From Ferroacidibacillus organovorans (GTDB lineage: Bacteria; Bacillota; Bacilli; Alicyclobacillales; SLC66): DNA of 34,431 bases. Positions 12,165-29,403 of this stretch are shown here, piece after piece (position 1 is the first letter of the stretch; each line of letters starts with the position of its first letter). The notes under the pieces were generated by a model. It made no database searches. It was not told the origin of the DNA and worked only from the letters and a program-made list of their open reading frames with translations. A program made the position numbers and the translations under genes. The stretch covers positions 1-34,431 of the forward strand of contig NZ_LSUQ01000028.1 in NCBI RefSeq assembly GCF_001642725.1. Reading direction: 5' to 3'.

Positions 12165-12230
12165 CGTATAGGCGATCCTCTTAAAGGGTATATTATGATT
12201 CTTCAAAAATCATAGAAATGAGGATTAAAA

Positions 12231-13994: not shown

Positions 13995-14037
13995 ACCCCT
14001 CGGCGAGTCTTGCCATATCAGTCCGTGAAACGGAGTA

Positions 14038-15261
14038 TTATTTCGACAAGCCTTTTGACATGTTTGCCTGTAGGTTTGATGTAAGGTTTGAAAAAGAGAT
14101 TAATCCTTGATGATACCAAAGGATGTGCCCGGTACCAGATACTAAAACTTGTGTGGGAATCCCTGTGATCCCGTACAAGTCACTCACGCTGCCAGTCGCG
14201 TCTAAAGCAACTGGGTATTGAAGATGGTTTGTGACCATGTATTGTTTTACATGTAGCGTCGATGGCTCAGATTGTCGCAGATCTACGGCGAAAAGAGTAG
14301 GCCATGTGGGATGTCTTTTTGTCCATTGCGCATACTTTTGTAACGTTGGTGTTTCCATTTGGCAATCTGGACACCACGTTGCAAAAAACTCGAGCAGTGT
14401 AGAATGCCCAGTGTGGCCGATTGAAATATTTCGCGTCGTCGGTAGTCCAGACTTGTTGGGAAAAAGTGTTGGAAGCGTAAATGCGCGATCTACAGCTGAG
14501 GAAGGTCCAAGTGAGCTTGGAAGATACTCTAGCTGTCGTGCGGGCGCGAATTGAGAAGGGCTTACATGTCCAGGCAAGAGGGGAGCAATGTGGTTTTCGA
14601 TCTCCTGTACTTGGGCAGAAATCGTCGATGCTTGAGGATCTGTACTGTTTAGGTACAGCCATTTTTCATGACCTTTTGCGTCGATGACAAAAACGGCCGC
14701 GATGTGTTCTACAAGATTGCCGTGAAGGATTTGACTTGAGACGTAGTAATTTTTCCAAACGTTTTGCAAGGAATCGGTAGGGCCTGTGAGGTACTGCCAC
14801 TCATGGAGCATCCCATGCGAAGATGACCAATCATAGACGTCTTTTACCTTGGTTGCGATCGGGTTTGCATTGACCGCAACCAACTGTACATTTTTTCGAT
14901 ACGGACCAAGATCATACATGAGATTTTTTAATACGACTGCAGTAAGCGGGCATACTGTGGTGCATTTGCTATCAATAAATGTCAAAACAACAATTTTACC
15001 CCTATAATTCTTTAGAGAGATCGATTTTCCAAATTGATTGGTCAGTGTGAAGTTGGGGGCCATTTTGTTTCCAAGTGACGCTCCAGGATCGACATTTGGA
15101 TTGGATGCAGGGTTATTCGTATTTGGAGTAGCCGTATTTGACTTGGGAATAGGGTGGATATTTGATACAAACCGCCAAGTAAAGAAGGTAATGGCGAGAA
15201 GAAAAAGAATCGTTACAAATGCAATCGTGATTTCAATCAAATGCTTTATGGATCGATTCAA
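14038..15261 (-). CDS. SCO1/SenC-TlpA two-domain fusion protein
   Basis: This 407-residue membrane-anchored protein joins two thioredoxin-fold domains. An N-terminal anchor (about residues 9-32) and an Asn/Pro-rich linker lead to a SCO domain (about 66-228) with the copper-binding CTTVCP (Cys100, Cys104) and a His at 186 in VEHIAAVF where SCO proteins have their third ligand. After a linker comes a TlpA domain (about 255-400) with FFATWCPDCQMETP (Cys297, Cys300) and cis-Pro in TGIPTQVLV. SCO delivers copper to the CuA site of cytochrome oxidase and TlpA-type proteins reduce the SCO or CoxB Cys, so the fusion would couple chaperone and reductase. TTG 15261 is chosen for AAAGGAGT 9 bases upstream; frames to 15348 have no such site. 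A CcdA-like gene lies 38 bases upstream. Confidence 0.85.
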   Translation of the reverse strand: MNRSIKHLIEITIAFVTILFLLAITFFTWRFVSNIHPIPKSNTATPNTNNPASNPNVDPGASLGNKMAPNFTLTNQFGKSISLKNYRGKIVVLTFIDSKCTTVCPLTAVVLKNLMYDLGPYRKNVQLVAVNANPIATKVKDVYDWSSSHGMLHEWQYLTGPTDSLQNVWKNYYVSSQILHGNLVEHIAAVFVIDAKGHEKWLYLNSTDPQASTISAQVQEIENHIAPLLPGHVSPSQFAPARQLEYLPSSLGPSSAVDRAFTLPTLFPNKSGLPTTRNISIGHTGHSTLLEFFATWCPDCQMETPTLQKYAQWTKRHPTWPTLFAVDLRQSEPSTLHVKQYMVTNHLQYPVALDATGSVSDLYGITGIPTQVLVSGTGHILWYHQGLISFSNLTSNLQANMSKGLSK

Positions 15262-15299
15262 AATGATAAACTCCTTTCGCTTGACCCTCTCGCGATCTT

Positions 15300-16001
15300 T
15301 TATAAGCCTGTAATAAGCAGACCGCGAGGGCCTTCCAGCCAGTACCACAATAAATAAAGTCCTGCGAAGATCATTACGATCGCACTCAACTTCTGGATAT
15401 AAGGAAGCGCGAATCGAATAAAAACCTCAACCGTTTGCCGAGCTGTTGTGGCAAGTATGGATAGGATGGTGATCACAATCCCCATCCCAATACTGTAAGC
15501 TAAAAATGAGATAATCCCGTTACTGAATCCCGTAACGAATCCCTGGGATGCCACGCTGACAAAAACGGGTAAACTACAGCTCAGGGATGCAATGCCAAAT
15601 GCGATTCCAAAGGCGAAAAAAGAACCGGAGGAACCTCGCGCAAAGAGTCCTTCAAGGCGAGTGGTTAGTTTCCCTGTGTGGAATCCAAGATAAAGGTTGC
15701 CACGCCAAACATAGAAGGCCATGATAAACAAGAGTATGGCTAAGAGAATCGACAGTATGGGTGCTGCGCCAAAAAGCCACTGACCTAGGGTAGAGACCAG
15801 GAGACCCGCAACCCCGAACATGAGGATAAACCCTAAGGTCATGAGCATTCCGGCACGCAAGCCGTCCATCCATCCCCACCTTGGCCTATGAATTCGACCA
15901 GAGAGCAAGTACATGAGGTAAGAAGGAAGAAGTGCAATACCACATGGATTAAAAGCGGTAACCATGCCTGCAGTACCAGAAATCAGCCATGAAATAGGCA
16001 A
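15300..16001 (-). CDS. CcdA-like membrane thiol-transfer protein
   Basis: This 233-residue DsbD/CcdA-superfamily membrane protein has six helices and one Cys in each half: TAFNPCGIALLPSY (Cys20) and ASLSCSLPVF (Cys142). The TTG start 16001 follows AGGAGGT by 6 bases; the frame continues to 16076 but would cross the divergent csoR promoter. It is transcribed ahead of the SCO-TlpA fusion (38-base gap), so it probably feeds electrons to that protein's TlpA domain. It resembles the protein at 32379-33038 in the mercury operon (both have FNPCG and a following ALLP/AMLP) more than the classical CcdA at 11448-12164. Confidence 0.82.
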   Translation of the reverse strand: MPISWLISGTAGMVTAFNPCGIALLPSYLMYLLSGRIHRPRWGWMDGLRAGMLMTLGFILMFGVAGLLVSTLGQWLFGAAPILSILLAILLFIMAFYVWRGNLYLGFHTGKLTTRLEGLFARGSSGSFFAFGIAFGIASLSCSLPVFVSVASQGFVTGFSNGIISFLAYSIGMGIVITILSILATTARQTVEVFIRFALPYIQKLSAIVMIFAGLYLLWYWLEGPRGLLITGL

Positions 16002-16098: not shown

Positions 16099-16118
16099 CT
16101 GTGTCGGGTGGTGATGAA

Positions 16119-16394
16119 ATGCACGGGTACCAAAAGGATGCAGAAGATTTATTGAACAGGTTGCGCAAAGTGGAAGGTCAGGTGCGTGGCATACAAAAGA
16201 TGATTCAAGAAGATCGCTATTGTGTAGACATTTTGACGCAATTTTCATCGATCAAATCGGCTCTCGCAAAAATCGAGTTGGCGCTCCTTGAGAGTCACAC
16301 GCGCGGATGTGTGGTGGACGCCATTCAAGGTGGCGGCGGGGATGAGAAGATTGACGAATTGATGCACGTGATCCGGGCGAGTATGAAGGGGTAG
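16119..16394 (+). CDS. csoR: CsoR copper-sensing repressor
   Basis: This 91-residue all-helical DUF156 repressor binds DNA as a tetramer or dimer of dimers and releases on Cu(I) binding. The Cu(I) triad is present: Cys35 (RYCVDILTQ), His60 and Cys64 (ESHTRGC). The basic helix KVEGQVRGIQKMI is typical. ATG 16119 is used because the promoter -10 ends at 16098, so an in-frame GTG at 16101 would lie before or at the transcript start; GGTGGTGA precedes the ATG. copA begins 12 bases after the stop, giving a csoR-copA operon. Having both Cys and the His argues for copper rather than the Ni (RcnR) or persulfide (CstR) branch. Confidence 0.92.
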   Translation: MHGYQKDAEDLLNRLRKVEGQVRGIQKMIQEDRYCVDILTQFSSIKSALAKIELALLESHTRGCVVDAIQGGGGDEKIDELMHVIRASMKG

Positions 16395-16406: not shown

Positions 16407-18623
16407 ATGGCAGAGGCAGTTCTTGAAACGGAGCGCGTCCCTTCCGAGCAGATTCAGATGAACATCACGGGGATGACATGCGCGGCGTGTGCGGCGCGTA
16501 TCGAGAAACAGTTGAACAAAGCACCGGGTGTCGTGCGGGTGAACGTCAATCTCGCGAGCGAAAAGGCGGTTGTGGAGTACGCGACGGGGACACTCACACC
16601 GGATGCGATCATTCGTGTCATTGAGAAGACAGGGTACGGCGCGGAACCGGTTACGGAGGCGTTGGGCGAGGAGCGCGAAGATCAGCGCATTGCGTATCGC
16701 AACTTGCGCGTCGCGTTTTGGGCGGGCGTTGTGTTGACGCTGCCCCTCGTGGTTCAGATGATCAGTGGTTTTATTCCACACGCGTCCTTTATGCTCCCTG
16801 TGTGGCTGCAAATCGCGCTTGCGACACCAGTTCAGTTTGTGGTGGGCTGGCGCTTTTACAAAGGGGCGTATCACGCCCTGCGCGGCGGCGCGCCAAACAT
16901 GGATGTGCTCGTCTCTTTGGGGACATCGGCCGCCTATTTGTTCAGTTTGGCAGTCGTCATCTGGCGCATCCCGTCTGGTCTCTACTTTGACTCGGCGGCG
17001 CTGATCACGACGCTCATTTTGATGGGCAAACTGCTTGAGCATAAGGCGAAGGCGCAGACGTCGCGCGCGGTGCGGGCGCTCGTAAAGTTGCAGGCAAAAA
17101 CGGCGCGCGTGATTCGCGACGGTCAAGAGATGGACATTCCCACAGAGCAGGTGGTGACAGGGGATGAGCTGCTCGTGCGGCCGGGGGAGAGCCTCCCGGT
17201 GGACGGGATCATCCTGTCGGGGCGGACGTCGATTGATGAATCGATGCTGACGGGAGAGAGCATGCCTGTGGCAAAAGAGGCGGGCAGTGCGGTGTTTGGC
17301 GCGACACTCAACAAGGAAGGCGCATTTCACATGCGGGCGACCAAGGTGGGGCGCGACACGGCGCTGGCGCAGATCATTCGCATGGTGGACGAGGCGCAGG
17401 GGTCGAAGGCGCCGATTCAACAGCTGGCAGACAAGGTGTCGGGGATCTTTGTGCCGATTGTGCTTGTTGTATCACTCGTGACGTTTATCGGGTGGTATTT
17501 TGCGGCCGGGTTCACGCACGCGCTGATCAATGCGGTGGCGGTTCTGGTCATCGCGTGCCCCTGTTCGCTTGGTCTTGCGACGCCGACGGCGATCATGGTG
17601 GGGACAGGAAAAGGCGCCGAGAATGGCATCCTGATCAAGGGCGGCGAAGCACTCGAACAGGCACATCGACTGACGGCGGTGATCCTTGACAAGACAGGGA
17701 CGATTACGAGCGGTCGCCCGGAGGTGACAGACGTGGCTGCGCTGTCTGATCGCGTGTGGGAGCGGGATCTGCTCGCATTGGCAGCCTCTGTTGAGCGCGA
17801 GTCGGAGCATCCGCTGGGCGCGGCGATCGTTTCTCATGCGCAAGCGCAGGGTCTGATTTTGCCGACGGCGAAAGATACAACGGCCATTCCGGGTTATGGC
17901 GTGCGCGCAACGGTGGAGGGCATGCTCGTGTTGATTGGCAACCGCGCCTTCATGGAGCGCGAAGGCGTTGCACTGGAGGACGGGGCTGACAGACAGGCGA
18001 TAGGCTTTGAAGCGATGGGCAAGACGGCGATGTGGGTGGCGCGCGATCGTGAGCTGCTCGGGATCATCGCGGTGGCGGATGGGGTCAGAGAGACGTCGCG
18101 GCAGGCGATCGCAGAGATGACTTCGCTCGGGCTTTCGGTGTACATGCTGACGGGAGATAACCACAAGACAGCACAGGCGATCGCCCAATCGGTGGGGATT
18201 GCGGCAGAGCGCGTTTTTGCGGAGGTGCTGCCTCAGCAAAAGGCGGAGATGGTCAAAAAGCTGCAAGGGGAAGGAAATGTGGTTGGCATGGTGGGCGACG
18301 GGATCAACGATGCCCCGGCGCTTGCCTCCGCAGAGATCGGTTTTGCCATCGGATCGGGTACGGACGTAGCCATTGAGACGGCGGACATCGCGCTTTTGCG
18401 CGGGGATCTGTTGAGCGTGGTCACCGCGATCCGTCTCTCGAACGCGACCATAAAAAAAATCCGGCAAAACCTCTTCTGGGCATTTGGCTACAATTCGCTC
18501 GGCGTACCGCTGGCCGCACTCGGGTTCATCAGCCCGGTGATTGCCGGCGCCGCGATGGCGCTCAGTTCGGTGAGTGTTGTGAGCAACTCTCTGTTGTTGC
18601 GGCGTTTTCGCTCGACAGTGTGA
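16407..18623 (+). CDS. copA: Cu(I)-exporting P1B-type ATPase
   Basis: This 738-residue ATP-driven Cu(I) exporter has one N-terminal HMA domain with [13 protein letters not shown] (Cys25, Cys28), an eight-helix membrane region with the transport motif CPC (384-386), and a phosphorylation site DKTGT starting at Asp428. The hinge [10 protein letters not shown] is present, as are the late-helix residues YN (FGYNSLGVP) and [12 protein letters not shown], the Met/Ser signature of Cu(I) pumps. ATG 16407 has GAGGTGAT 7 bases upstream. The base composition is clearly more GC-rich than the genes to its left. It is co-transcribed with csoR and followed 101 bases later by copZ, a standard Gram-positive copper efflux set. 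Confidence 0.96.
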
Positions 18624-18724
18624 GTTATGGCAGCGCGTTCGTAATGCGAATTCGGCGGCCAGCGTATTCTCGTGATGCCATCGGGTGTGCGCACAGGAAA
18701 GCCATTTGAAGGGAGGTGAGGGAG

Positions 18725-18931
18725 ATGGCGGTGGCAACGATTGAGGTGCAGGGGATGACCTGTCAGGGGTGTGTCAAATCGGTCACGAAGGCGCTGCAGG
18801 CGGTTGACGGGGTGACGTCGACGGACGTGAGTCTTGAGAAAAACCAGGCGACGGTGACCTATGAAGAAGGTAAAACAACGGTTTCGGATTTGAAGTTGGC
18901 GATTGAAGATGCCGGATATGATGTGGCGTAA
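18725..18931 (+). CDS. copZ: Copper chaperone CopZ
   Basis: This 68-residue HMA-domain chaperone carries Cu(I) to CopA in the cytosol. The metal site is GMTCQGCVKSV (Cys13, Cys16), with the ferredoxin-like pattern closing at LKLAIEDAGYDVA. ATG 18725 follows GGAGGTGA by 5 bases; an in-frame GTG at 18716 lies inside that ribosome binding site and is rejected. It lies 101 bases after copA and ends in a terminator hairpin. Confidence 0.94.
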   Translation: MAVATIEVQGMTCQGCVKSVTKALQAVDGVTSTDVSLEKNQATVTYEEGKTTVSDLKLAIEDAGYDVA

Positions 18932-18949
18932 GTGCAGTTTAAAACCGGA

Positions 18950-18992
18950 GTGGGCGTGCAGGTTCTCACGAATCTGTGCGCTCACGTTTTTT
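18950..18992 (+). terminator. Rho-independent terminator after copZ
   Basis: GTGGGCGTGCAG (18950-18961) pairs with CTGTGCGCTCAC (18974-18985) as a 12-bp stem with three G-U pairs, followed by G and a run of six T. It closes the csoR-copA-copZ unit. Confidence 0.75.
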
Positions 18993-19078
18993 ATGTCTGC
19001 CGATCCTGATTGTCTGATAAACTAGACGTAGTTTTACGATTGCGATGTGTGGCACGAAAAAGGGGCGGAGGAAAACCT

Positions 19079-20167
19079 ATGAGCATTTTGAACCGGATTC
19101 GCACCATTTTGGCGGGCGAACGATATTGCTCTGATGAGCACTTGGAAGGTTATCACAGGATCGGGCAAGATGTGTACGTTCTTGAGATGGAGCTTTTGGA
19201 CGCGACAGAGCCGCATGCAAAAGCCATTGCGCGCGCCGCGCGCTGTTTTCAAGTGATTGGGGATGCGCTTTTGCAGGATGCGCGGGAGGATGATCAGAAG
19301 CGCTCGGTGGCGAGCATCACGCATGAGCAGGCGGAGGTATTGTACGGAAGGATTCCTGATCTCATGGTTGCCGCCAGACAGGAGGCTGCGTTTGCGGGGA
19401 GTGCCCGCGTGAGTTTGCCGATTCGACTTGGGAAACGGGTAGAATCTGGCCATACTGGTCCGTTGGAGCATTTAATTGGGTTGCAGCGCGCGGCGGATGA
19501 TCTGGAATCTCTACTGTCGTCGAAGATCCAGTTGGCGAGGTTGGAGGGTGACAAATTTAAAGAATCCATTCTTTTAGCAGAAGAGGCGCGAACGCGAAGA
19601 CGGACAGGGGATTCGACGGTAGGGAGACTGACGGAGGGGAAAAAGGTTCCGGCTGATCTGCACGAAGAGGCAGAAGAATCCTACTGGACGGCACTGTCTT
19701 CCTATTTGCTGGTTGCGCAAGGGCTCGAAGATCCGAGCGTTTTGTCGCATCCGGCGCGCGTGAGCAGCGTCAAAAGCAAATTAGACTCGGAGGATCGCTG
19801 GCGCATAACGTCTGAGTCGGCGAAACGAGAGATTCGCAGAAGTGGAGAATGGCAGATTGCAGAGCGGGATCTTGACGAATTTTGGGAGTCTCACCGCCTC
19901 ACGCAAGAAGAGCGCGAGTATGAAGCGACCGTAGAAAATCTGCTGCGCTCAGGCGATATCGTGGAAAATGGATACTGGTACTGTTGCCCATTCCAGTCTT
20001 GTTATCGTGTGGTGCAAGGTCCTGTGCATGTCGTGGGACATACCGTCAAGCAGCATCACGCATTTGTGTGGGAATACGGTGAAGATGGAGCGCGGGGCCA
20101 TTTTATTCAGGTGGAATCCTTCAATCGCGCAGACTCCCGGCAGTACTGTGGCGATGAGGATGAGTAA
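19079..20167 (+). CDS. Unknown protein with a C-terminal C2H2-type zinc finger
   Basis: This 362-residue protein has no signal peptide or membrane segment and is mostly helical and charged (Glu/Arg-rich), with likely coiled-coil stretches near residues 150-210. ATG 19079 has GGAGGAAAA just upstream; the frame runs back to 19010 without a site. Near the C-terminus, residues 303-326 fit the classical C2H2 pattern exactly: Cys303-x4-Cys308-x12-His321-x4-His326, with a hydrophobic residue four after the second Cys. A further Cys302 and a terminal QYCGDEDE are nearby. No family was recognised for the body of the protein. It lies between copZ and the cupredoxin cluster, each side closed by a terminator, so it is a single-gene unit. 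Nucleic-acid or protein binding through the finger is possible. Confidence 0.7.
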   Translation: MSILNRIRTILAGERYCSDEHLEGYHRIGQDVYVLEMELLDATEPHAKAIARAARCFQVIGDALLQDAREDDQKRSVASITHEQAEVLYGRIPDLMVAARQEAAFAGSARVSLPIRLGKRVESGHTGPLEHLIGLQRAADDLESLLSSKIQLARLEGDKFKESILLAEEARTRRRTGDSTVGRLTEGKKVPADLHEEAEESYWTALSSYLLVAQGLEDPSVLSHPARVSSVKSKLDSEDRWRITSESAKREIRRSGEWQIAERDLDEFWESHRLTQEEREYEATVENLLRSGDIVENGYWYCCPFQSCYRVVQGPVHVVGHTVKQHHAFVWEYGEDGARGHFIQVESFNRADSRQYCGDEDE

Positions 20168-20214
20168 ACCGTCAATCCTTGCAATTTCTCTCTCGTGATA
20201 AACGAACAATCCCG

Positions 20215-20265
20215 TCGCGATCCAGAGCGAGTGATCTAGCGCTCTCAGGATCGCGAACCATTTTT
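20215..20265 (+). terminator. Rho-independent terminator, two-step stem
   Basis: TCGCGATCC-AGAGCG pairs with CGCTCT-CA-GGATCGCGA (stem of 15 bp with a 2-base bulge, 10-base loop), followed by ACCA and five T. It closes the zinc-finger gene and insulates the next promoter, 14 bases further on. Confidence 0.8.
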
Positions 20266-20278
20266 AGCATGACGTGCA

Positions 20279-20308
20279 CACACTTTCTTCACACTTGCGC
20301 GCTAGGAT
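20279..20308 (+). promoter_or_regulatory. Regulon promoter 1: CACACTT-TCTT-CACACTT box with -10
   Basis: Direct repeats CACACTT (20279-20285) and CACACTT (20290-20296), period 11, are followed after 6 bases by the -10 hexamer TAGGAT (20303-20308). There is no proper -35; the box sits where one would be. It drives the SHOCT protein and the first cupredoxin. One of five such promoters in the window with identical geometry. Confidence 0.7.
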
Positions 20309-20338
20309 GAAGCCAACAATTGAAAGGTGGGCTCTGAA

Positions 20339-20536
20339 ATGGGATGTTGTGGTGGAGGGATTTTCTCGCGTGGGTATCGTCAATCCTCTCAAAGGGCATC
20401 TGCGCCGATCAAGCAACAGGCGGATTCTCCGGTCGATACGTTAAAGAAACGTTTAGCGAATGGTGAAATCAGTGTCGAAGAGTATCAGAAACTTTTAGTC
20501 ATTCTTCAGCAAGAAGATGTACCCATGCGTCTGTAA
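20339..20536 (+). CDS. Small SHOCT-domain protein with Cys-Gly N-terminus
   Basis: This 65-residue protein begins MGCCGGGIFSRGY and ends with a SHOCT domain (DTLKKRLANGEISVEEYQKL), a short helical oligomerisation module. ATG 20339 has AAGGTGG 8 bases upstream; a GTG at 20327 is in frame but lies in that region. The two N-terminal Cys could bind metal or be lipid-modified only if exported, and no signal peptide is seen. It is the first gene behind regulon promoter 1 and is followed 20 bases later by a cupredoxin gene. A second SHOCT protein (27332-27598) heads the regulator operon under the same promoter type. Confidence 0.7.
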   Translation: MGCCGGGIFSRGYRQSSQRASAPIKQQADSPVDTLKKRLANGEISVEEYQKLLVILQQEDVPMRL

Positions 20537-20556
20537 TTGAAACGGGGTGTCACGCA

Positions 20557-21219
20557 GTGAAAATGGGACGATCCATTTGGCTGTGGGGGTTGATAGCCCT
20601 CGCAGGGTTTATCGTGTTGGCGGGCGTTTTCATGGTTGCCTTCAGAATGTACAGTGGGCAAGGCTATGGAGGCATGATGGGAGGCGGTTATGCAGCAACG
20701 GGGCCGATAGGATCATCCGTGGGAGGCGTGACCCGCCGAACGTCCTGGCTATCGAGTGCAGAACTCGCTACAACGATTCGCGTGGGGGAGCAGGCTGCAA
20801 GGATCGACAAAAAGACAAATCGCATCGTTTATCGCGGAAAAAACGTGAATCTTGTTGCGCTTGCCTCTCCGCACGGTGTGCCGAATATGACGTTTGAAGT
20901 CGATGGGTTGGTGAATCCAACTCTTGTCGTGCCTGCCCATGCGCGCATCACCATTGAACTTGTCAATACGGACTGGGGATACATGCACGGCTTTGAAGTG
21001 ACGGAGACGCCGCCGCCATACTCATCCATGGTGATGATGGGGATTCAAAATGACTTTATTTTGATGCCATTGCCGCCGCGCACGACGCAAAATCTCCAAA
21101 CCGCACAGTATGCAACCCGCACGGAGACGTTGACGCTGCCCGCAGGGACGTATCACTATTTATGCCCGGTTCCAGGACATGCGGCGACAGGGATGTACGG
21201 TCGTCTGATCGTAACCTAA
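20557..21219 (+). CDS. Rusticyanin-like blue copper protein (cupredoxin)
   Basis: This 220-residue membrane-anchored cupredoxin has an N-terminal helix (about residues 6-29), a Gly/Met-rich linker (GYGGMMGGGY) and a type-1 copper domain (about 75-220). Ligands are His144 (GYMHGFEV), Cys203, His208 and Met213 in LCPVPGHAATGMYG; the Cys-x4-His-x4-Met spacing and the PGHAATGM text match rusticyanin of Acidithiobacillus as remembered, as does the upstream FEV-NPT-VP-A pattern. Rusticyanin carries electrons from Fe(II) toward terminal oxidases at low pH. GTG 20557 follows GGGGTG by 7 bases. It has a close paralogue at 22978-23775. Sulfocyanin or another acid-stable cupredoxin is the alternative; an iron-oxidation role is inference. 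Confidence 0.82.
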   Translation: MKMGRSIWLWGLIALAGFIVLAGVFMVAFRMYSGQGYGGMMGGGYAATGPIGSSVGGVTRRTSWLSSAELATTIRVGEQAARIDKKTNRIVYRGKNVNLVALASPHGVPNMTFEVDGLVNPTLVVPAHARITIELVNTDWGYMHGFEVTETPPPYSSMVMMGIQNDFILMPLPPRTTQNLQTAQYATRTETLTLPAGTYHYLCPVPGHAATGMYGRLIVT

Positions 21220-21277
21220 CGTCAACTACCCACCACGGTAAATTCGTTGAATGTTTTTCTGAAGGGGGGTCTCTTCC

Positions 21278-21874
21278 GTGTGTGTCAATCACCCGCGCTT
21301 TACACGTTTTTATGTTTGGGGGCAGCGGTACGTAGAACAGGCTGTTGGGGAAATCAGGGAAAAGCAGAACAGCAAAGCCTACGGGAGAACGCTCATTGTA
21401 GGTGCGGGTACGGGTTTAGACATTTCCACACTCGGTTCAAAGGTGAGCGAAATTACGTTGCTTGAGCCAGATGCACACATGCGCACCTACTTAAAACAAA
21501 CCTATGATTCTCTCCCTTTGATTCCATCGACGGCCGAAAACATGGATGTGGGGGACGGGCAGTTCGATACAGTGATAACCAGTCTCGTACTGTGTTCTGT
21601 GACAAATGTGCGGCAAGTCTTATCTGAAATTTACCGCGTGCTAAAGCCCGGTGGACAGTATCTTTTCATGGAACACGTGCAGCACAATGAGGCTGTTTCC
21701 CGCATGGTACAAAATTCATTGAACCCCGTTTGGCAACACATTGCAGGCGGCTGTCAGCTAAATCGGAAGATTGCTGATGACATAAACGCCTCTGCCTTCA
21801 CCACCATCGAATGCAGTCTTGTAAAACCCCATTTCCTCATTCCGATCATCGCGGGACAGGCTATACGCATTTGA
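21278..21874 (+). CDS. Class I SAM-dependent methyltransferase
   Basis: This 198-residue protein has the Rossmann methyltransferase motif I TLIVGAGTGLDI (about residues 39-50), the acidic end of strand 2 (LLEPDAHM), motif II/III FDTVITSLVLCSV and the YRVLKPGGQYLFMEHV block. GTG 21278 follows GGGGGGT by 7 bases. It resembles the UbiE/phospholipid N-methyltransferase-like group (PF08241 type), in which EHV before the C-terminal part is common. The substrate is unknown. It lies 58 bases after the cupredoxin and may be co-transcribed from regulon promoter 1. Confidence 0.85.
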   Translation: MCVNHPRFTRFYVWGQRYVEQAVGEIREKQNSKAYGRTLIVGAGTGLDISTLGSKVSEITLLEPDAHMRTYLKQTYDSLPLIPSTAENMDVGDGQFDTVITSLVLCSVTNVRQVLSEIYRVLKPGGQYLFMEHVQHNEAVSRMVQNSLNPVWQHIAGGCQLNRKIADDINASAFTTIECSLVKPHFLIPIIAGQAIRI

Positions 21875-22136
21875 TCGCGCCGAGCAAACCCTCCTCATGA
21901 CCACTGACCCAGCATCGAACCTGGGCGATCTGTTTGATTTGTCTTTGTCAGGATGTACTGGATTTTCAAGGGGGTTGAATATGCCGCACGCTATGGAGAA
22001 CTAGGCCAAGATTTATAAGGCGAAGCTAAATCGCAAGCGGTCCATGTTGTCTTTTGAGTACATTGGGTACCTTGAATTTGCTACCTAACCTCAATGTAAA
22101 TCGCTTTAGAGAGGCATCTTACATCGGGGATAACAG
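21875..22136. other. Intergenic stretch without a supportable gene
   Basis: 262 bases between the methyltransferase and spoIIR stop codons. CCCAG (21908-21912) and CTGGG (21921-21925) make a short hairpin without a T run, and two short broken frames are visible near 21980-22085. Nothing firmer can be claimed. Confidence 0.5.
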
Positions 22137-22820
22137 CTATAGCGTACGTTGCAAATGAACCCACAGAAGATGGATCTGTAGTTCTGCGATGGATAGCCAT
22201 TGCTGACCGTAATCGACAATGGCTAAACGGAGCTGCACAGGGATTCGCTTTCCGTTAGGTTCTGTGATACTCGTGACTGCCAGCGGAGGAGTTTGAGGAA
22301 ACGCACCTGTTCGTGGAATCGCGTGGGCATTCATGGCAACGTAGCACAGTTGGGGAAAGATTACACACCACCAATTATGTCCTTGCCCTTTTCCTAGAAC
22401 AATGCGCAATGCCTCATAATTACCAGCTGGGAAGACGTGATTGCCATAGAATTTTCTTGGAAACCATGTCATTCCAAAGGTCGTTGTGCTGTTGTAAGTG
22501 ATCCCCATATGATTTAGATCGTCATGAATCAACGGATTGATCTTTGATATGTCGCGCTGAATTTCTAGTGCGGTTTGACTGTATGTGAGATGTTTCGGAA
22601 GATGTTGAGACAGAAAGGTTAATACGTGATCGCGTATCGCCAGTTTAACACGTTGATCGTGTGGGGTATTGCTATTTGCGATGATGCGAATCCGAATGGC
22701 ATTCGCAGGCAGAGGGGATGACGGGAGAGAAGCAAGGGCAAAGAGTGGACGAAACGAAAATTGATGGAGCAGCCCGAACAGACATACGCCAACAAATGTG
22801 AAAATCACCCCCCGCCTCAT
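22137..22820 (-). CDS. spoIIR: Stage II sporulation protein R (SpoIIR)
   Basis: This 227-residue secreted signalling protein, made in the forespore under sigma-F, triggers SpoIIGA to process pro-sigma-E in the mother cell. The signal segment (about residues 3-22) is followed by the family's IRIRIIANSNTPHDQRVKLA and the GHNWWCVIFPQLCY block with its conserved Trp and Cys. ATG 22820 follows GGGGGGTGAG; an in-frame ATG at 22844 sits upstream of that site. It is the only gene on the minus strand in this region and separates the two cupredoxin units. It is good evidence that the host is an endospore former. Confidence 0.92.
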   Translation of the reverse strand: MRRGVIFTFVGVCLFGLLHQFSFRPLFALASLPSSPLPANAIRIRIIANSNTPHDQRVKLAIRDHVLTFLSQHLPKHLTYSQTALEIQRDISKINPLIHDDLNHMGITYNSTTTFGMTWFPRKFYGNHVFPAGNYEALRIVLGKGQGHNWWCVIFPQLCYVAMNAHAIPRTGAFPQTPPLAVTSITEPNGKRIPVQLRLAIVDYGQQWLSIAELQIHLLWVHLQRTL

Positions 22821-22922
22821 GTTCTCACCCCCCTTTTCATTCAAAAAAACCTGGTAGGTGGAAGTGTGGCCAGTTCAGGAGCTAGATATACGTGAGAGTC
22901 ATAGGAAACTCAATTGGATCTG

Positions 22923-22952
22923 CATACTTTCTTCACAGTTGGTCTCTATGAT
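22923..22952 (+). promoter_or_regulatory. Regulon promoter 2: CATACTT-TCTT-CACAGTT box with -10
   Basis: CATACTT (22923-22929), TCTT and CACAGTT (22934-22940) are followed after 6 bases by TATGAT (22947-22952). The start codon of the second cupredoxin is 25 bases after the -10. Same geometry as the promoters at 20279, 24212, 26063 and 27245. Confidence 0.72.
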
Positions 22953-22977
22953 GACTGTGAAAGGGAGGAATGCAGTG

Positions 22978-23775
22978 ATGAAAAGAAAAGGTTGGATCAT
23001 TCCTGTGATCGCTGGTTTGTCTGTGTTGATGATTGGCAGTGGGGCGTTTGCGGCGACGGTTTCGCAAACAAACCGCATGACTTTTCAGGGAACACATACG
23101 AGCCATGGATTAACGGGTACTGTGGGTGTGATGGGTGACAGAAGCAGCGGAAGTGGCGCCGCGAGCGCGCTGGGCGGCGGATACGGCATGATGGGCGGCG
23201 GAAGTGGCGCCGCGGGCAGGATGGGCGGTGGATACGGTAGGATGGGTGGCGGAAGTGGAACTGCGAGTCGGATGGGCGGTAGGATGAACGCTTATTCTTC
23301 ACTTGACAGTAGTGCCTCGCTGAATCAACAGATTGCGCTGGGAAAGCAGGGAGCCGTGATCGATCAAAAGACCAATACGATCACGTACAGCGGTGGGTCG
23401 ATTAACCTGGTTGCGCTCGCATCGCCGCACGGGGAACCGAATATGACGTGGGAGATCGATGGATTGGTGAATCCCACAATCATCGTGCCTTCCAGTGCAA
23501 ATGTTCAAGTTACCTTGGTGAATACGGACTGGGGATATATGCACGGATTTGAGGTGACGTCAACCGCACCACCGTATGGCATTATGGCGATGATGAGTGT
23601 GAATAGCGATTTTCTATTGATGCCGCTGCCTGAACGAACAACCAAGGCGCTTGCCACAGCGCGTTATGATACGCGATCTGGGCAGTTGCATTTGAGTAAA
23701 GGGACGTATCACTATCTATGTCCGATGCCCGGTCACGCCAATCAGGGTATGTACGGAACACTAAAAGTCGTTTAA
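22978..23775 (+). CDS. Rusticyanin-like blue copper protein, Gly/Met-rich form
   Basis: This 265-residue paralogue of the cupredoxin at 20557 has a cleavable-looking signal peptide (about residues 1-26, ending GAFAA), then a ~50-residue low-complexity region of GGGYGMMGGGSGAAGRMGG type repeats, then the copper domain (about 115-265). Ligands are His189 (GYMHGFEV), Cys248, His253 and Met258 (LCPMPGHANQGMYG). Long identical stretches are shared with the first copy (INLVALASPHG/VNLVALASPHG, LVNTDWGYMHGFEVT, GTYHYLC). ATG 22978 follows GGGAGG by 9 bases; codons back to 22858 precede the mapped promoter and are rejected. The Gly/Met tract may tether it at the surface or bind Cu(I). Electron transfer outside the membrane is inferred. 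Confidence 0.82.
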   Translation: MKRKGWIIPVIAGLSVLMIGSGAFAATVSQTNRMTFQGTHTSHGLTGTVGVMGDRSSGSGAASALGGGYGMMGGGSGAAGRMGGGYGRMGGGSGTASRMGGRMNAYSSLDSSASLNQQIALGKQGAVIDQKTNTITYSGGSINLVALASPHGEPNMTWEIDGLVNPTIIVPSSANVQVTLVNTDWGYMHGFEVTSTAPPYGIMAMMSVNSDFLLMPLPERTTKALATARYDTRSGQLHLSKGTYHYLCPMPGHANQGMYGTLKVV

Positions 23776-23795
23776 TTTTTGCTCCATCGCATAGA

Positions 23796-23856
23796 GAACC
23801 GCGCAGGGACGGCAAAGGCACATTCGTGTCCAGTCCGCTTGCGCGGTTCGAATTTT
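23796..23856 (+). terminator. Long-range hairpin after the second cupredoxin
   Basis: GAACCGCGC (23796-23804) pairs with GCGCGGTTC (23841-23849), with an inner GGAC/GTCC pairing in the 36-base loop, followed by GAATTTT. This is probably a factor-independent terminator. Confidence 0.55.
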
Positions 23857-23887
23857 AAAAATGCATCTTTCTTAGGGGGGAGTGAAC

Positions 23888-24199
23888 GTGAGACGTTTGG
23901 ATTGGATGATTGCCAGTGGATTTGTTCTGTTGGGTCTTTTGTGTTTGATGATCGCCGGTGAAATCTTTGTAAGCGATCCAATGATGGCTGGAATGATGGG
24001 AGCGAATCCTAAGAGCAGCGCGCTATTTATCGTTATTCTCATACTATTTGTCATGATGGTTATGGTCTTGTTGGTGCGAATGAATCTTGATAAAAAGAAC
24101 GCTCCATCGGTGCGCTGTCTACATTGCAGTCAACGCTTAAAGTCGGAATGGCGTGTGTGTCCTTATTGCGGTCAGCATCGATCGCAGATTTGGGAATAG
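23888..24199 (+). CDS. Small membrane protein with C-terminal zinc ribbon
   Basis: This 103-residue protein has two membrane helices (about residues 8-24 and 42-62) with a Met-rich loop between them (DPMMAGMMGA), then a cytoplasmic zinc ribbon: CLHC...CPYC (Cys-x2-Cys-x10-Cys-x2-Cys). GTG 23888 is preferred over GTG 23882 because of its distance from GGGGGGAG. It is a clear paralogue of the protein at 29400-29708, which closes the two-component operon: same two helices, Met-rich loop and ribbon. Sensing or buffering of a metal at the membrane is possible; function unknown. Confidence 0.75.
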   Translation: MRRLDWMIASGFVLLGLLCLMIAGEIFVSDPMMAGMMGANPKSSALFIVILILFVMMVMVLLVRMNLDKKNAPSVRCLHCSQRLKSEWRVCPYCGQHRSQIWE

Positions 24200-24211
24200 A
24201 TCAGGCTTCTC

Positions 24212-24241
24212 CATACATTCTTCACAGGTAGGCGATAAAGT
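24212..24241 (+). promoter_or_regulatory. Regulon promoter 3: CATACAT-TCTT-CACAGGT box with -10
   Basis: CATACAT (24212-24218), TCTT and CACAGGT (24223-24229) are followed after 6 bases by TAAAGT (24236-24241). It precedes the peroxiredoxin gene and is the most divergent of the five boxes. Confidence 0.62.
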
Positions 24242-24273
24242 ATGTACAAACGAAGACAGGAGAGATGTTGTTT

Positions 24274-24921
24274 ATGTCAGAAGTGCAGCAATTGCCGAGA
24301 TTGAATGAATTAGCACCAGATTTTGAAGCGAACACGACGCAAGGAAAACTAAAATTGAGTGATTTTCACGGGAAGTGGGTGGTTCTTTTTTCCCATCCAG
24401 CTGATTTTACGCCTGTGTGTTCGACGGAGTTCGGATCATTCGCTTCGAAAACGGAAGAGTTTGCAAAGCGCAATGTCCAATTAATCGGGCTGTCTGTAGA
24501 CGGTGTGCAGGCGCATTTGGCATGGATTCGCGACATTGAAGAGATTTTTTTACACAAGGTTACGTTTCCGGTGATTGCTGATTTGGATATGAAGGTATCA
24601 AGCTTATACGGAATGATTCATCCTGGTGCAAGCAGTACGGCGGCGGTTCGCTCGGTGTTCATCATGGATGACAAAGGGATCATGCGAGCGATGATTTACT
24701 ACCCGATGAATGCGGGACGCAATATATCAGAGATCATCCGTGTCATTGATGCGCTGCAAACGGCGGATCAATACGGCGTCTCGACACCTGCGGATTGGAC
24801 GCCTGGGGGAGAGGTCGTCGTGGCTCCCCCTGCGCAACAAGGCGCGATCAAGACACAGGAGGAAGAAGAAGCTCAAGGCTACGATTATAAACGTTGGTAC
24901 CTGCGCTTTAAAAATCTTTGA
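24274..24921 (+). CDS. 1-Cys peroxiredoxin (Prx6 type)
   Basis: This 215-residue cytosolic peroxidase reduces H2O2 and organic peroxides. The peroxidatic Cys49 lies in HPADFTPVCSTE, and no second Cys exists anywhere in the protein, which fixes the 1-Cys class. The C-terminal arm typical of Prx6/AhpC2-type enzymes is present (YYPMNAGRNISEIIRVIDAL, then DWTPGG). ATG 24274 lies 11 bases after AGGAG; the in-frame ATG 24265 is only 2 bases from it. It is a single-gene unit between regulon promoter 3 and a strong terminator, so it should be induced with the cupredoxins. Confidence 0.9.
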   Translation: MSEVQQLPRLNELAPDFEANTTQGKLKLSDFHGKWVVLFSHPADFTPVCSTEFGSFASKTEEFAKRNVQLIGLSVDGVQAHLAWIRDIEEIFLHKVTFPVIADLDMKVSSLYGMIHPGASSTAAVRSVFIMDDKGIMRAMIYYPMNAGRNISEIIRVIDALQTADQYGVSTPADWTPGGEVVVAPPAQQGAIKTQEEEEAQGYDYKRWYLRFKNL

Positions 24922-26092: not shown

Positions 26093-26122
26093 CCTGCTAT
26101 TGTCTAAAAGAGGTGTATGCAT

Positions 26123-27271
26123 ATGAACATGACTCCCTATATTGATCCCGCGGTTGTTCACTCCTTTCACGTGATGCTCTTTCAGTGGAGCCTCATGACG
26201 CTCGCGTCTGTTCTGTTGATGTCTGCGGCGTGGTGGCTTTTAGGCTATTTCAATGAGGATACGGATGCCCCTCGGCGCATCACGTTTGACACACATCATC
26301 CTTTTCGACAAATCTGGATGCTGATCCGCCACCGCGTCGGGCATACTCCAAAGGCGCGTGTCGTACTAGGGTGGGGTTTGGGAACATTCTGGCTCATCGA
26401 TGGAATTCTTCAAGCGCAGCCCGCCATGCCCAATAATGGATTTGTCCAGGACGTGCTTGCCCCCTCAGTGATAGGGCAGCCGCCGTGGTATCTTCGCATT
26501 CTCGGATGGAACATCCAGTTTTGGTCAGACTATCCTGTTGGCGCAGACGTGTTTTCCGTGATTTTACAGGTGGGCATCGGGCTGTGCCTTTTGCTCGCGA
26601 TGGATCGGGTCTGGGGACGGATTGGGTTGTGGGTATCCATCGTATGGGGTCTTGGCATTTGGTTTTTGGGAGAAGGGATGGGCGGCATCTTGACGGGCAG
26701 CGCGACATGGCTGTCAGGATCGCCTGGCTCCGTCCTGTTCTATGTGTGTGGCGCGATCTTTTTACTGCTTCCAGAAAGCGTGTGGAGAGATGGACGGGTC
26801 ATTCGACTCGGAAATCGCGTGATCGGAGGGATCTGGATCTTGGCCACGTTCGCCCAAGCGTTACCTACGGCAGGGTACTGGACAGGGCAAGGTCTCAGCG
26901 GGCCATTTATAACCGCAGCCAGTATGCCGCAACCAAGCTTTTTTTCAGATCCGATCCATGCGATGGCGGTGAGTACGCTTCGTCATCCGTGGCTTTGGAA
27001 TGCCGTTTTTGTTGCCTTTATGTTTACCTTGGGTGTCTTCTTCTGGTTTCAAAGGGTACACTCATGGGTGTTGGTCTCGGCATTTGTATGGCTCTTTTTC
27101 AGTTGGTGGATGGGGCAAGATTTTGGGGTCATGGGTGGGATTGGAACCGATCCAAATTCAGCGCCCGTGTTCGCTTTGTTCATTGTGACGATCCATCTCG
27201 ATCGGTTCGCGCGTCGCAAGCATGCACCTATAGAACGACATACACAAACTTTCTTCACACTTGAGCGGTAA
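26123..27271 (+). CDS. Multi-helix membrane protein of unknown function
   Basis: This 382-residue integral membrane protein has about nine helices. ATG 26123 is chosen (7 bases after AGGTG); ATG 26117 is too close to it. Conserved-looking motifs are FWLIDGILQAQPAMPNNGF, ILGWNIQFWSDYP, IWFLGEGMGGILTGSATWLS and the late SWWMGQDFGVMGGIGTDPN; many Trp, Gly and a few His (VVHSFHVM, THHPF) line the helices. It recalls a family of actinobacterial membrane proteins with LGEGLGGLLTG-type motifs, but no function is known to me. It is under regulon promoter 4, and its 3' end overlaps regulon promoter 5. A partner of the cupredoxins in membrane electron transfer, or an unlinked stress protein, are both open. 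Confidence 0.65.
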   Translation: MNMTPYIDPAVVHSFHVMLFQWSLMTLASVLLMSAAWWLLGYFNEDTDAPRRITFDTHHPFRQIWMLIRHRVGHTPKARVVLGWGLGTFWLIDGILQAQPAMPNNGFVQDVLAPSVIGQPPWYLRILGWNIQFWSDYPVGADVFSVILQVGIGLCLLLAMDRVWGRIGLWVSIVWGLGIWFLGEGMGGILTGSATWLSGSPGSVLFYVCGAIFLLLPESVWRDGRVIRLGNRVIGGIWILATFAQALPTAGYWTGQGLSGPFITAASMPQPSFFSDPIHAMAVSTLRHPWLWNAVFVAFMFTLGVFFWFQRVHSWVLVSAFVWLFFSWWMGQDFGVMGGIGTDPNSAPVFALFIVTIHLDRFARRKHAPIERHTQTFFTLER

Positions 27272-27274: not shown

Positions 27275-27331
27275 CTAAGCAGTAAGAAGAAGTGCTGATA
27301 CGTGCCTGTCATTGAAAAGGGGTGTTATACC

Positions 27332-27598
27332 ATGTGGTATGGAAATGGTGGAATTGGGTTTGGGTCGATGATGGGAGCGATGGGGATCATGGGATTTGTC
27401 ATGATTCTGTTTTTCGGGATCTTGATCTTTGCCGTCGTTTTTGGGGTGAGAATGTTCACGCGAACGGAGCGCGGTTATTCAGGCGGAAATTCGTCTCATG
27501 ATTCGGGCAGGGCGCTTCACATCGTTAAAGAACGCTATGCCAAAGGGGAAATCAGCCGCGATGAGTACGATCGGCTGCGCGATGAGTTGAAAGACTGA
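27332..27598 (+). CDS. Membrane-anchored SHOCT-domain protein
   Basis: This 88-residue protein begins MWYGNGGIGFGSMMGAMGIM, has one membrane helix (about residues 14-42) and ends in a cytoplasmic SHOCT domain (IVKERYAKGEISRDEYDRLR). ATG 27332 follows AAAGGGGTG by 7 bases; an in-frame GTG at 27302 has no site. It is the first gene of the SHOCT-regulator-kinase-zinc-ribbon operon. The Met/Gly-rich N-terminus recalls the linkers of the two cupredoxins. It may modulate the kinase or form membrane oligomers; this is inference. Confidence 0.72.
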   Translation: MWYGNGGIGFGSMMGAMGIMGFVMILFFGILIFAVVFGVRMFTRTERGYSGGNSSHDSGRALHIVKERYAKGEISRDEYDRLRDELKD

Positions 27599-27631: not shown

Positions 27632-28321
27632 ATGCAGCGCCATATCCTGATCGTGGACGATGAGGCGGCAATGCGGCAATTGGTGCGCATCTATCTGGCG
27701 CACGCGGGGTTCTCCGTCTCTGAAGCAAAGGACGGTGTTTCGTGTATGGAGGAACTGTCTGCGGGCGTCTATGACATGGTGATCCTCGACATGATGATGC
27801 CAGGCATGGACGGTGTGGAAGTGTGTCGGAGGATTCGCGAGCGTCTTCCTGAGATGCCAGTGCTTATGTTGACCGCGCGCGACGAGGTGGAGTCGCGCGT
27901 AAAGGGGCTCACGGCTGGTGCGGATGACTACCTGACGAAACCGTTTGACTCGCGGGAACTGGTCGCGCGTGTCAAAAGTTTACTGCGAAGAACGCAACCT
28001 CGCGATGAGGTGGAGTACGCGATTCCGGAATATCATTTGCGCATGGATGTCGAGACGCGAAATGCGACGGTGCGCGAGGAACGGCTCGCGCTTACTCCCA
28101 AGGAGTTTGATTTGCTCGCATTGTTCGTCAAGTGGCCCGGCCGCACGTACACGCGTGATGAACTGCTGGATCGGGTCTGGGGACCAGAGTATGAGGGAGA
28201 CACGCGCACGGTGGATAGCCACATCAAAAACATCAGAGAAAAGCTGCGGGACGCGGGCCTTTCGGCGAGCATCCTCGCCACCGTCTGGGGCATCGGCTAT
28301 CGGTTTGAGGTTCCCAAATGA
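27632..28321 (+). CDS. OmpR/PhoB-family response regulator (probable activator of the box regulon)
   Basis: This 229-residue protein has a receiver domain with DDE pocket (9-11), phospho-acceptor Asp53 (MVILDMMMPGMDG) and Lys of LTKPFD, then a winged-helix DNA-binding domain (about 130-228; ALTPKEFDLLALF, DTRTVDSHIKNIREKL, VWGIGYRFE). All switch residues appear intact. ATG 27632 follows AGGGGAGAGG. Its gene overlaps the kinase gene by ATGA. The 11-bp direct-repeat boxes before five transcription units, including its own operon, are the kind of site this family binds as a head-to-tail dimer, so it is the prime candidate regulator. Confidence 0.92.
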   Translation: MQRHILIVDDEAAMRQLVRIYLAHAGFSVSEAKDGVSCMEELSAGVYDMVILDMMMPGMDGVEVCRRIRERLPEMPVLMLTARDEVESRVKGLTAGADDYLTKPFDSRELVARVKSLLRRTQPRDEVEYAIPEYHLRMDVETRNATVREERLALTPKEFDLLALFVKWPGRTYTRDELLDRVWGPEYEGDTRTVDSHIKNIREKLRDAGLSASILATVWGIGYRFEVPK

Positions 28322-29403
28322 TTCGCTCACGCATCGCCGTCAAACTCGGGGCATCCATCCTTGGGCTTATGCTCGTGGTGCTTTCAGCGCTCTATCTCTC
28401 GCTTGAACAGTTGATGGTTCATGTGGCGCAATTTCGTGACATCAGCCACGCCGCCTCGAGTCGTGTAGAACAGATGCTCGTGCTGGCCGCAGTCGGGGCG
28501 ATCCTGTTGACGGCAGGTCTGGCGATCGTTCTCTCACATCGCCTCGCGCAGCCCCTGCTCGCGATGAGAAGGGCCACGCGCGAGATTAGTCGCGGGCAGT
28601 ACCACATTCGCGTGCCTGCGTCAGGTCGCGATGAGGTCTCCCAACTCGGTCAGGCCATCAATGATCTCGCGAAACATCTGGATTATCTGGATAAAACGCG
28701 CAAGCAATTTCTCGCCGATGTCGCGCATGAATTGCGTACACCGCTCACGTACATTAAAGGCTATAGTGAAGTGGTGTACAAGGGAATGGCGGAGTCACCG
28801 GACGCGGTCAATCGCTATTTGGCGCTGATCTATGAAGAAACGCAACGCGTCGAACGCTTGATTCAGGATTTGTTTACCCTCGCGCAAGCGGATGAAGGGG
28901 TGCTCTTGCCCATACACCGGGAGAAAATTCAGGTCAATGAGTGGATTTGCAACCTGGTTGATCGGGTGAGCGCGCGGGCAGCCACCAAGGATGTTACGGT
29001 GGATGTGCACATCGCGCAAACGTTCTGCGTTGAAGGCGATCCTGTGCGACTTGAACAGGCATTGATCAATGTGCTTGACAATGCGGTGCGCTACACGTTG
29101 TCCGGTGGGATGGTATCGGTCGCGGTCGCGCAAGAGGGAGACTTCCTCCTGCTCCAGGTGAGCGATACGGGCATCGGCATTCCGCGTGAGGAACTCCCCT
29201 ATATCTGGGAACGCCTCTATCGCGTCGAGAAGTCGAGGTCGCGCGGGGGCGGCGGAAGTGGGCTTGGTTTGGCGATTGTCAAACAGATTGTCGAGTCGCA
29301 CGGGGGATACGTTTCCGCGAAGAGTGAAGAAGGAAAAGGGACGGTCATTACGCTCGGCGTGCCGCTTCATGCAGGCGTCGACACGGGAGGGGATCGGGCG
29401 TGA
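28318..29403 (+). CDS. Sensor histidine kinase of the box regulon
   Basis: This 361-residue kinase has two membrane helices (about residues 8-28 and 53-73) around a short loop of ~24 residues (LEQLMVHVAQFRDISHAASS), then HAMP, HisKA with phospho-acceptor His137 (VAHELRTPLTYIKGY) and an HATPase domain with NVLDNAVRYT, DTGIGIP and GGGGSGLGLAIVKQIV. The loop contains His35 and His44 but no larger sensor domain, so the signal may be read in or at the membrane. It overlaps both neighbours by four bases, so the three proteins are made in fixed proportion. It is GC-richer than the kinase at 6166-7266 and only moderately similar to it. Confidence 0.92.
   Translation: MIRSRIAVKLGASILGLMLVVLSALYLSLEQLMVHVAQFRDISHAASSRVEQMLVLAAVGAILLTAGLAIVLSHRLAQPLLAMRRATREISRGQYHIRVPASGRDEVSQLGQAINDLAKHLDYLDKTRKQFLADVAHELRTPLTYIKGYSEVVYKGMAESPDAVNRYLALIYEETQRVERLIQDLFTLAQADEGVLLPIHREKIQVNEWICNLVDRVSARAATKDVTVDVHIAQTFCVEGDPVRLEQALINVLDNAVRYTLSGGMVSVAVAQEGDFLLLQVSDTGIGIPREELPYIWERLYRVEKSRSRGGGGSGLGLAIVKQIVESHGGYVSAKSEEGKGTVITLGVPLHAGVDTGGDRA

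Follow-up and report, generated by a model that had tools for sequence, protein, structure and literature searches.

The window analysed here, a stretch of 34,431 nucleotides from Ferroacidibacillus organovorans (contig NZ_LSUQ01000028.1 of assembly GCF_001642725.1), encodes two paralogous cupredoxins that are closer to rusticyanin than to any other known family, both in sequence and, for the first copy, in predicted fold. The observation of two rusticyanin-like cupredoxins in a spore former, made in a first-pass annotation that used the sequence without database searches, is confirmed. As for function, we give about an even chance to both proteins being electron carriers between Fe(II) and the AcoP/CuA oxidases encoded elsewhere in the genome, possibly serving as copper buffers as well. 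The electron route from Fe(II) to oxygen in Gram-positive acidophiles is unsettled in the literature (PMC6803676, PMC5143472, and PMC4062416; papers are cited throughout by PubMed Central accession and from excerpts of their text). This genome offers a small, testable list of parts: two cupredoxins of the rusticyanin type, three AcoP-CuA oxidases, and no class-I cytochrome c found by the searches below. Either outcome would be useful, be it iron respiration that does without haem c or a copper function for the rusticyanin fold.

Two rusticyanin-like cupredoxins

Both genes were found where the first-pass annotation had placed them, on the + strand. Copy 1 (20557..21219) encodes 220 residues, with the GTG at 20557 as residue 1, while copy 2 (22978..23775) encodes 265 residues counted from the ATG at 22978. 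The open frame of copy 2 extends upstream to 22858 (305 residues), but that start is mechanical only; a ribosome-binding-like GGGAGG and a signal-peptide-like N terminus point to the GTG at 22975 or the ATG at 22978 as the true start. The two proteins are 63% identical over 158 residues, and each keeps the four type-1 copper ligands with the Cys-x4-His-x4-Met spacing previously noted (H144, C203, H208, and M213 in copy 1; H189, C248, H253, and M258 in copy 2, as read from sequence and alignment), with which they would bind copper. In copy 1, an N-terminal hydrophobic stretch is followed by a short Gly/Met tract and the cupredoxin domain, whereas in copy 2 a signal-peptide-like N terminus precedes a long Gly/Met tract and the domain. 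Read by eye, these N termini suggest that copy 1 is membrane-anchored and copy 2 secreted. A Gly/Met-rich tract is thus present in both copies and not, as had been claimed, in the secreted one only. Part of the tract of copy 2 is formed by a 51-bp tandem repeat (23147..23285, + strand; 2.7 copies). In a sister species, the copy-2 frame is broken in the region of this tract (L111:6356-7325), through either a real frameshift or an assembly slip.

Profile searches assign both proteins to the surroundings of rusticyanin. The TIGR03095 model (rusti_cyanin) matches copy 1 with an E-value of 2.3e-28 (99.3 bits) and copy 2 with an E-value of 7.4e-27 (94.4 bits), and rusticyanin is the top phmmer match in the PDB for both (E-values of 6.9e-23 and 2.4e-22). 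The curated cut-off of this equivalog model, 146.7 bits, is reached by neither copy, nor in any of the 59 genomes of the order. For sulfocyanin, the copies score above the PF06525 cut-off of 21 (25.9 and 22.7 bits) and far under the TIGR03094 cut-off of 168.4 (25.7 and 15.6 bits). Placement among CopC- or SOR-accessory-type cupredoxins, which the first-pass annotation had named as the outcome that would speak against it, is addressed by the Pfam scan alone: no CopC-type family is among the matches listed at E ≤ 1, from which HMMER filters drop most weak matches, and the tree described below holds only rusticyanin-like sequences.

The predicted structure of copy 1 agrees with these searches. 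Its AlphaFold2 model has a mean predicted local distance difference test score (pLDDT) of 76.4, with low values over the first 60 residues and, from residue 61, values of 86 to 98 per ten-residue block except in 101-110 and 151-180 (62 to 78). The model superposes onto residues 5-155 of rusticyanin (1rcy) with a Z-score of 22.8 and a root-mean-square deviation of 1.9 over 150 residues, N-terminal extension included, while the best non-rusticyanin cupredoxin among 998 chains compared reaches a Z-score of only 11.8. Foldseek finds rusticyanin 1a3z with an E-value of 5.8e-16. The whole rusticyanin fold, with its N-terminal extension, is therefore predicted for copy 1, the only copy to which this comparison applies.

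A chance motif is ruled out by E-values of 1e-22 to 1e-28 together with the predicted fold. Rusticyanin in the strict sense is also ruled out, by the missed cut-off, the residue at position 86, the separate clade, and the gene linkage described below. What stands of the proposed identity is thus a rusticyanin-like protein, as judged by sequence, ligands, and predicted fold.

A separate clade with Gly at position 86

The alignment and tree comprise 71 non-identical cupredoxin domains, each with a length of 120 residues or more and a match that extends to position 255 of the 265-position profile; shorter fragments (e.g., L025, L047, and L048) and identical copies were left out. Clade A has 26 rows, clade S four, clade B 17, and the Acidithiobacillus type 17, the remainder being three Chloroflexi, two Gemmatimonadota, and two other rows. 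The four ligands are kept in all 71 sequences, which were selected to reach the copper loop. Both window copies fall in clade A, a long-branched group (support 100/99) that contains Bacillota, from the window's order and two further metagenome-assembled genomes (MAGs), and 12 Actinomycetota MAG rows. The Sulfobacillus-type clade S is sister to it (joint support 98/88). The 17 Acidithiobacillus-type rusticyanins form a clade of their own (100/100), outside which the window copies lie, and clade B, a third Gram-positive clade (93/90), has members in 12 of the order's 59 genomes. The tree called for by the first-pass annotation therefore puts the copies beside Sulfobacillus-type rusticyanins, but in a separate, well-supported clade.

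Within clade A, each window copy groups with its counterpart from the sister species (support 100/100 and 100/99), which indicates that the duplication predates the split of the two species. One further frame (L116:5306-6577, identical to L020:9833-11104) matches the cupredoxin without the copper loop and continues into a response regulator; it looks like a decayed clade-A copy.

The residue that follows the first His ligand separates these groups. It is Gly in both window copies, in every clade-A (26/26) and clade-S (4/4) sequence, and in 15 of the 17 clade-B sequences, while it is Ser (Ser86) in all 17 Acidithiobacillus-type sequences and Asn in the three from Chloroflexi. In the literature excerpts, Ser86, which adjoins the first His ligand, is linked to high potential and acid stability.

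Oxidases elsewhere in the genome

The statement of the first-pass annotation that the window contains no cytochrome or oxidase gene is correct for haem-copper oxidases, but a multicopper oxidase is encoded at 4943-6118 (− strand). In the genome as a whole, COX1 is matched seven times, each time on a different contig; two of the matches are partial and resemble fragments of a single gene broken up in assembly, suggesting about six haem-copper oxidases. Three oxidases, on contigs C58, C55, and C9, have no CuA motif and are, by inference, of the quinol type. The other three have a CuA motif in COX2 and are encoded with an AcoP-like protein. On C62, the order is SoxE-like, AcoP-like, COX2, COX1, COX3, then a DoxX-like gene; C23 has the first five of these; and a cluster split between C27 and C39 contains AcoP-like, COX2, COX1, COX3, and DoxX-like genes.

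These three clusters (L106, L107, and L109), as well as clusters L216-L235, resemble the rus cluster of Acidithiobacillus. A Proteobacteria MAG (L033) has an Acidithiobacillus-type rusticyanin gene, and to the products of its neighbouring genes the AcoP-like protein is 35% and COX1 43% identical. Among the 23 AcoP-cox clusters examined, which were chosen by COX2 and in which C27 and C39 count as one, an AcoP-like gene is always present (23/23), a SoxE-like gene is found in 19, and a DoxX-like gene is nearby in 13. According to a pattern search and inspection of the ends of the 19 SoxE-like proteins, all 19 have lost the Cys ligand, including the two encoded on C62 and C23. Consequently, of the four SoxE/rusticyanin-type proteins found in the genome, the two encoded in the window are the only ones with a complete type-1 site, and the case for sulfocyanin as the carrier in this genome appears weakened.

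No class-I cytochrome c was matched by PF00034 (E ≤ 0.01) or PF13442 (E ≤ 0.001) in this genome or that of the sister species; the control for this search gave matches in 8 and 7 of 14 known genomes. Likewise, no strong bc-type cytochrome b was found with PF00033, which scores 34.7 and 21.1 bits in this genome versus 184 to 191 bits in five relatives. A CuA oxidase requires a protein as electron donor. Since neither of these cytochromes was found, and since the SoxE-like proteins lack the Cys ligand, the two proteins of the window are the strongest candidates in this genome for a carrier that moves between Fe(II) and AcoP/CuA.

We therefore favour the following scheme. Both copies would be extracytoplasmic type-1 (blue) copper carriers with a rusticyanin fold, copy 1 being tethered to the membrane and copy 2 being exported and carrying a flexible Gly/Met linker. 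Electrons originating from Fe(II) at the cell surface would pass one at a time via the cupredoxins to AcoP and the CuA centre of the three oxidases. The cupredoxins would then do the work that rusticyanin and cytochrome c share in Acidithiobacillus, as the missing cytochrome matches suggest, and might in addition buffer copper outside the membrane.

The distribution of the genes was compared within the order, where the AcoP-linked oxidase type, defined as a COX2 match at E ≤ 1e-50 (a gap in the listed E-values separates 9.8e-56 from 6.8e-20), is present in 19 of 59 genomes and a rusticyanin-like gene (E ≤ 1e-10) in 15. This oxidase type is found in 7 of 8 genomes with a clade-A gene versus 12 of 51 without (Fisher p 0.0009); G012 was not counted as clade A because its clade-A-like frame lacks the copper loop. 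By genus, the figures are 5/6 versus 6/19 (p 0.056). For clade B, they are 7/12 versus 12/47 (p 0.042; by genus p 0.24). Two of the three clade-S genomes have the oxidase, as does G075, whose cupredoxin fragment is too short for the tree. In G063, a genome outside the order that has a clade-A cupredoxin, a single COX2 protein carries both the CuA motif and a CxxCH haem motif (L194).

A number of findings weigh against electron transfer to these oxidases. The distribution test takes no account of common ancestry, and for clade A its value by genus is not significant. G011 has a clade-A gene without the AcoP-linked oxidase, and the oxidase occurs in ten genomes of the order that give no TIGR03095 match at E ≤ 1e-10, so rusticyanin-like proteins cannot be its general donor. 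Outside the order, the AcoP-linked oxidase is present in 0 of 13 clade-A genomes (all MAGs whose completeness is not stated), three of which have no COX2 match at all and nine of which have another COX2 with a CuA motif; a partnership with the oxidase as a universal rule of clade A was thus rejected. Nine genomes of the order have both gene types, and PF13442 cytochromes c occur in four of them (G035, G037, G047, and G058) and in none of the other five. The AcoP-like proteins have type-1-like ligands as well, and further cupredoxin families lay outside the genome-wide searches; moreover, the genome is 96.8% complete. The Gly that replaces Ser86 throughout clade A points in the same direction, but it was lightly weighed because statements on the effect of Ser86 conflict within one paper. 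Finally, the genes lie near a copper-efflux operon, the nearest characterised one, and outside any oxidase operon, and a strong terminator-like hairpin behind copZ weakens even a tie to copper supply. The suggestion that these are the electron carriers of a Gram-positive Fe(II)-oxidation pathway, made in the first-pass annotation, is hence partly supported: it gains from the AcoP-cox clusters and the missing class-I cytochrome c, and loses from the adjoining copper operon and the absence of the oxidase in the 13 genomes outside the order.

A more specific version, which we consider unlikely, is that of a Gram-positive Fe(II) chain with neither cytochrome c nor bc complex, in which the cupredoxins serve the AcoP-CuA oxidases and a DoxX-like protein links them to the quinone pool in place of bc. 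The candidate in the window is a multi-helix membrane protein of 384 residues (26117..27271, + strand), 39% identical over 285 residues to the DoxX-like protein of the C62 cluster. It has no Pfam match, its structural model has a mean pLDDT of 65.7 for which Foldseek returns nothing below an E-value of 0.41 (top row NACHO/TMEM35A), and a shorter relative (L005) has but a weak DoxX hit (E-value of 0.19); the name DoxX-like is therefore loose, and the quinone link a guess. In a Sulfobacillus-type MAG, a 571-residue protein encoded beside a rusticyanin-like gene fuses a DoxX-like part to a SoxE domain without Cys (L024:2512-4227).

Neighbouring genes and competing functions

Upstream of the cupredoxin genes, on the + strand, lie a CsoR/RicR-type regulator (16101..16394; closest model RicR, 90.5 bits, under the cut-off of 175), which is probably copper-sensing, a CopA-type copper-translocating P-type ATPase (16407..18623; TIGR01511, 622 bits, above the cut-off), and a CopZ-like copper chaperone with an HMA domain (18716..18931). 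Immediately 3' of copZ, a consensus scan detects the terminator-like hairpin, with 16 pairs followed by a T run (18950..18985, + strand). It is the strongest of 12 terminator-like sites in 18600-24300, where 5.5 are expected (SD 2.8), while a promoter scan of the same region gave one site versus 4.9 expected and is uninformative. The hairpin suggests that the copper operon stops before the cupredoxin genes, which would probably lie outside its transcript.

Of the genes that follow, those with coordinates are also on the + strand, with the exception of spoIIR. A conserved 385-residue protein without a Pfam family (19010..20167) and a small SHOCT-like protein encoded immediately 5' of copy 1 (20327..20536; 24.4 bits, under the Pfam cut-off of 27) precede the copies. 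Between the two copies are a class I methyltransferase gene adjoining copy 1 (21278..21874) and, as already noticed in the first-pass annotation, spoIIR (22137..22844, − strand; PF09551, 135.6 bits for a cut-off of 25; TIGR02837, 138.5 bits, under the cut-off of 151.9). Copy 2 is adjoined by a small membrane protein with a zinc-ribbon-like end (23882..24199), which has a relative at 29400-29708. The genes downstream of the copies include a CDF transporter and, behind the DoxX-like gene, a small SHOCT-domain protein (27302..27598; 30.4 bits, above the cut-off), an OmpR-type response regulator (27632..28321), and its partner sensor histidine kinase (28318..29403). The gene order is the same in the sister species (L111).

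Across the rusticyanin-like loci, genes were counted within 6 kb, and since several MAG flanks are short, the counts are lower bounds. A SHOCT protein is encoded near 14/26 clade-A, 4/4 clade-S, and 11/17 clade-B genes, and a histidine kinase near 10/26, 2/4, and 3/17, respectively, two-component pairs being recurrent. The family of the 19010-20167 protein recurs at 13 of 47 loci (5/26, 0/4, and 8/17), and a DoxX-like gene at 5/26 clade-A loci.

That the copies lie close to CsoR-CopA-CopZ and to two-component genes suggests a link with the supply of copper, perhaps with some regulation by copper. The same operon can also be read as a sign of the true function, and the strongest competitor of electron transfer, to which we give a substantial minority of the probability, is copper handling: the cupredoxins would bind copper exported by CopA and lower free copper outside or supply copper enzymes, electron transfer being secondary or absent. 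The upstream copper genes are kept in the sister species, and a copper gene is found within 6 kb of 5/26 clade-A, 1/4 clade-S, and 5/17 clade-B genes, the nearest being 16 to 1038 bases away in the five clade-B cases. Copper handling would also suit the Gly/Met-rich tracts and the multicopper oxidase and Sco-like protein encoded further upstream of the operon. What keeps it strong is the statement that rusticyanin and AcoP of Acidithiobacillus ferrooxidans conferred copper resistance on copper-sensitive Escherichia coli (PMC7463520, citing earlier work). According to the same source, again citing earlier work, rusA rises with copper, and a copper role was also considered for Sulfobacillus thermotolerans (PMC6803676). 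However, 21 of the 26 clade-A genes have no copper gene within 6 kb, and since four of the five that do belong to one island in two sister species, copper genes were rejected as a rule for clade A. The terminator-like hairpin between copZ and the next genes also speaks against copper handling, a full type-1 site with axial Met in a whole rusticyanin fold exceeds what a copper sponge needs, and copper handling would not explain why these genes and CuA oxidases go together within the order.

A protein of 436 residues (14038-15348, − strand) has two thioredoxin-like domains, one Sco1-like and one ResA-like. The Sco-like protein is encoded, together with the multicopper oxidase, a two-component system, and a BlaI/BlaR-like pair, in a region (4001-16000) with 42 to 46% G+C versus 49 to 58% elsewhere in the window; this region was possibly acquired. 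A piece of a Mutator transposase is found at 3222-3713.

It is very unlikely that the cupredoxins serve anaerobic Fe(III) reduction, passing quinol electrons, perhaps received via the DoxX-like protein encoded in the same stretch, on to Fe(III): Ferroacidibacillus species both oxidise and reduce iron (PMC11123200), rusticyanin has been implicated in Fe(III) respiration of Acidithiobacillus (PMC8790237), and a lower potential could follow from Gly in place of Ser86, but the distribution associates the genes with oxygen-consuming CuA oxidases, and only 5/26 clade-A genes have a DoxX-like gene within 6 kb.

Comparison with known systems

The first-pass annotation described rusticyanin as best known from Gram-negative iron oxidisers; Gram-positive rusticyanins are, in fact, already in print for Sulfobacillus. 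S. thermotolerans Kr1, a Gram-positive iron oxidiser, has two rusticyanins, one in a region with copper genes, and besides a protein of S. thermosulfidooxidans, the closest homologues of its rusticyanin-like protein are from Acidibacillus ferrooxidans (PMC6803676). Another source contradicts this, saying that Sulfobacilli lack rusticyanin (PMC6315122), and Rus has been reported to cluster with Bacillales including Alicyclobacillus (PMC10654088). In S. thermosulfidooxidans, expression of a sulfocyanin gene was high with ferrous sulfate as substrate (PMC4062416), and in the presence of Leptospirillum two soxE genes decreased together with several cox genes (PMC6315122). Cytochromes of the a type dominate the in situ spectra of two iron-oxidising Firmicutes (PMC5143472), a result compatible with both the presence and the absence of a blue copper protein. 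Relative to this open-licence PubMed Central literature, the new elements are a Gly86 clade shared with Actinomycetota, its copper-operon neighbourhood, and a link to AcoP-cox genes in a genome without a detected class-I cytochrome c.

The S. thermotolerans gene analysed here (L022) belongs to clade S, the sister of clade A, and lies near CopA and CopZ genes, with a relative of the methyltransferase gene on its 3' side. In contrast to the window, there is one copy in the 20 kb analysed, and the best-matching segment of its product shares 45% identity with copy 1. With sulfocyanin (SoxE), the window proteins share a PF06525 score over the cut-off, but they remain far below TIGR03094, and the SoxE-like proteins of the genome lack Cys.

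With Acidithiobacillus rusticyanin (RusA/RusB), the window copies share the four ligands and their spacing, the PGHA-x2-GM loop, and, in the predicted model of copy 1, the fold with its N-terminal extension. They differ in forming a separate long-branch clade, in having Gly for Ser86, in scoring under the TIGR03095 cut-off, and in carrying an N-terminal hydrophobic stretch or a Gly/Met linker. The literature excerpts describe a cyc-acoP-cox-rus cluster in Acidithiobacillus, of which the acoP-cox-rus part is seen in the loci analysed. The window copies, in contrast, are near a copper operon and show no rus-operon linkage to cytochrome c and cox genes, the cox clusters found being on other contigs of this draft genome. 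AcoP of Acidithiobacillus is a cupredoxin partner of the CuA oxidase (PMC4059628), and although AcoP-like genes are present in F. organovorans, the window proteins are distinct from it, since their nearest family is rusticyanin and they are encoded elsewhere than the AcoP-like genes.

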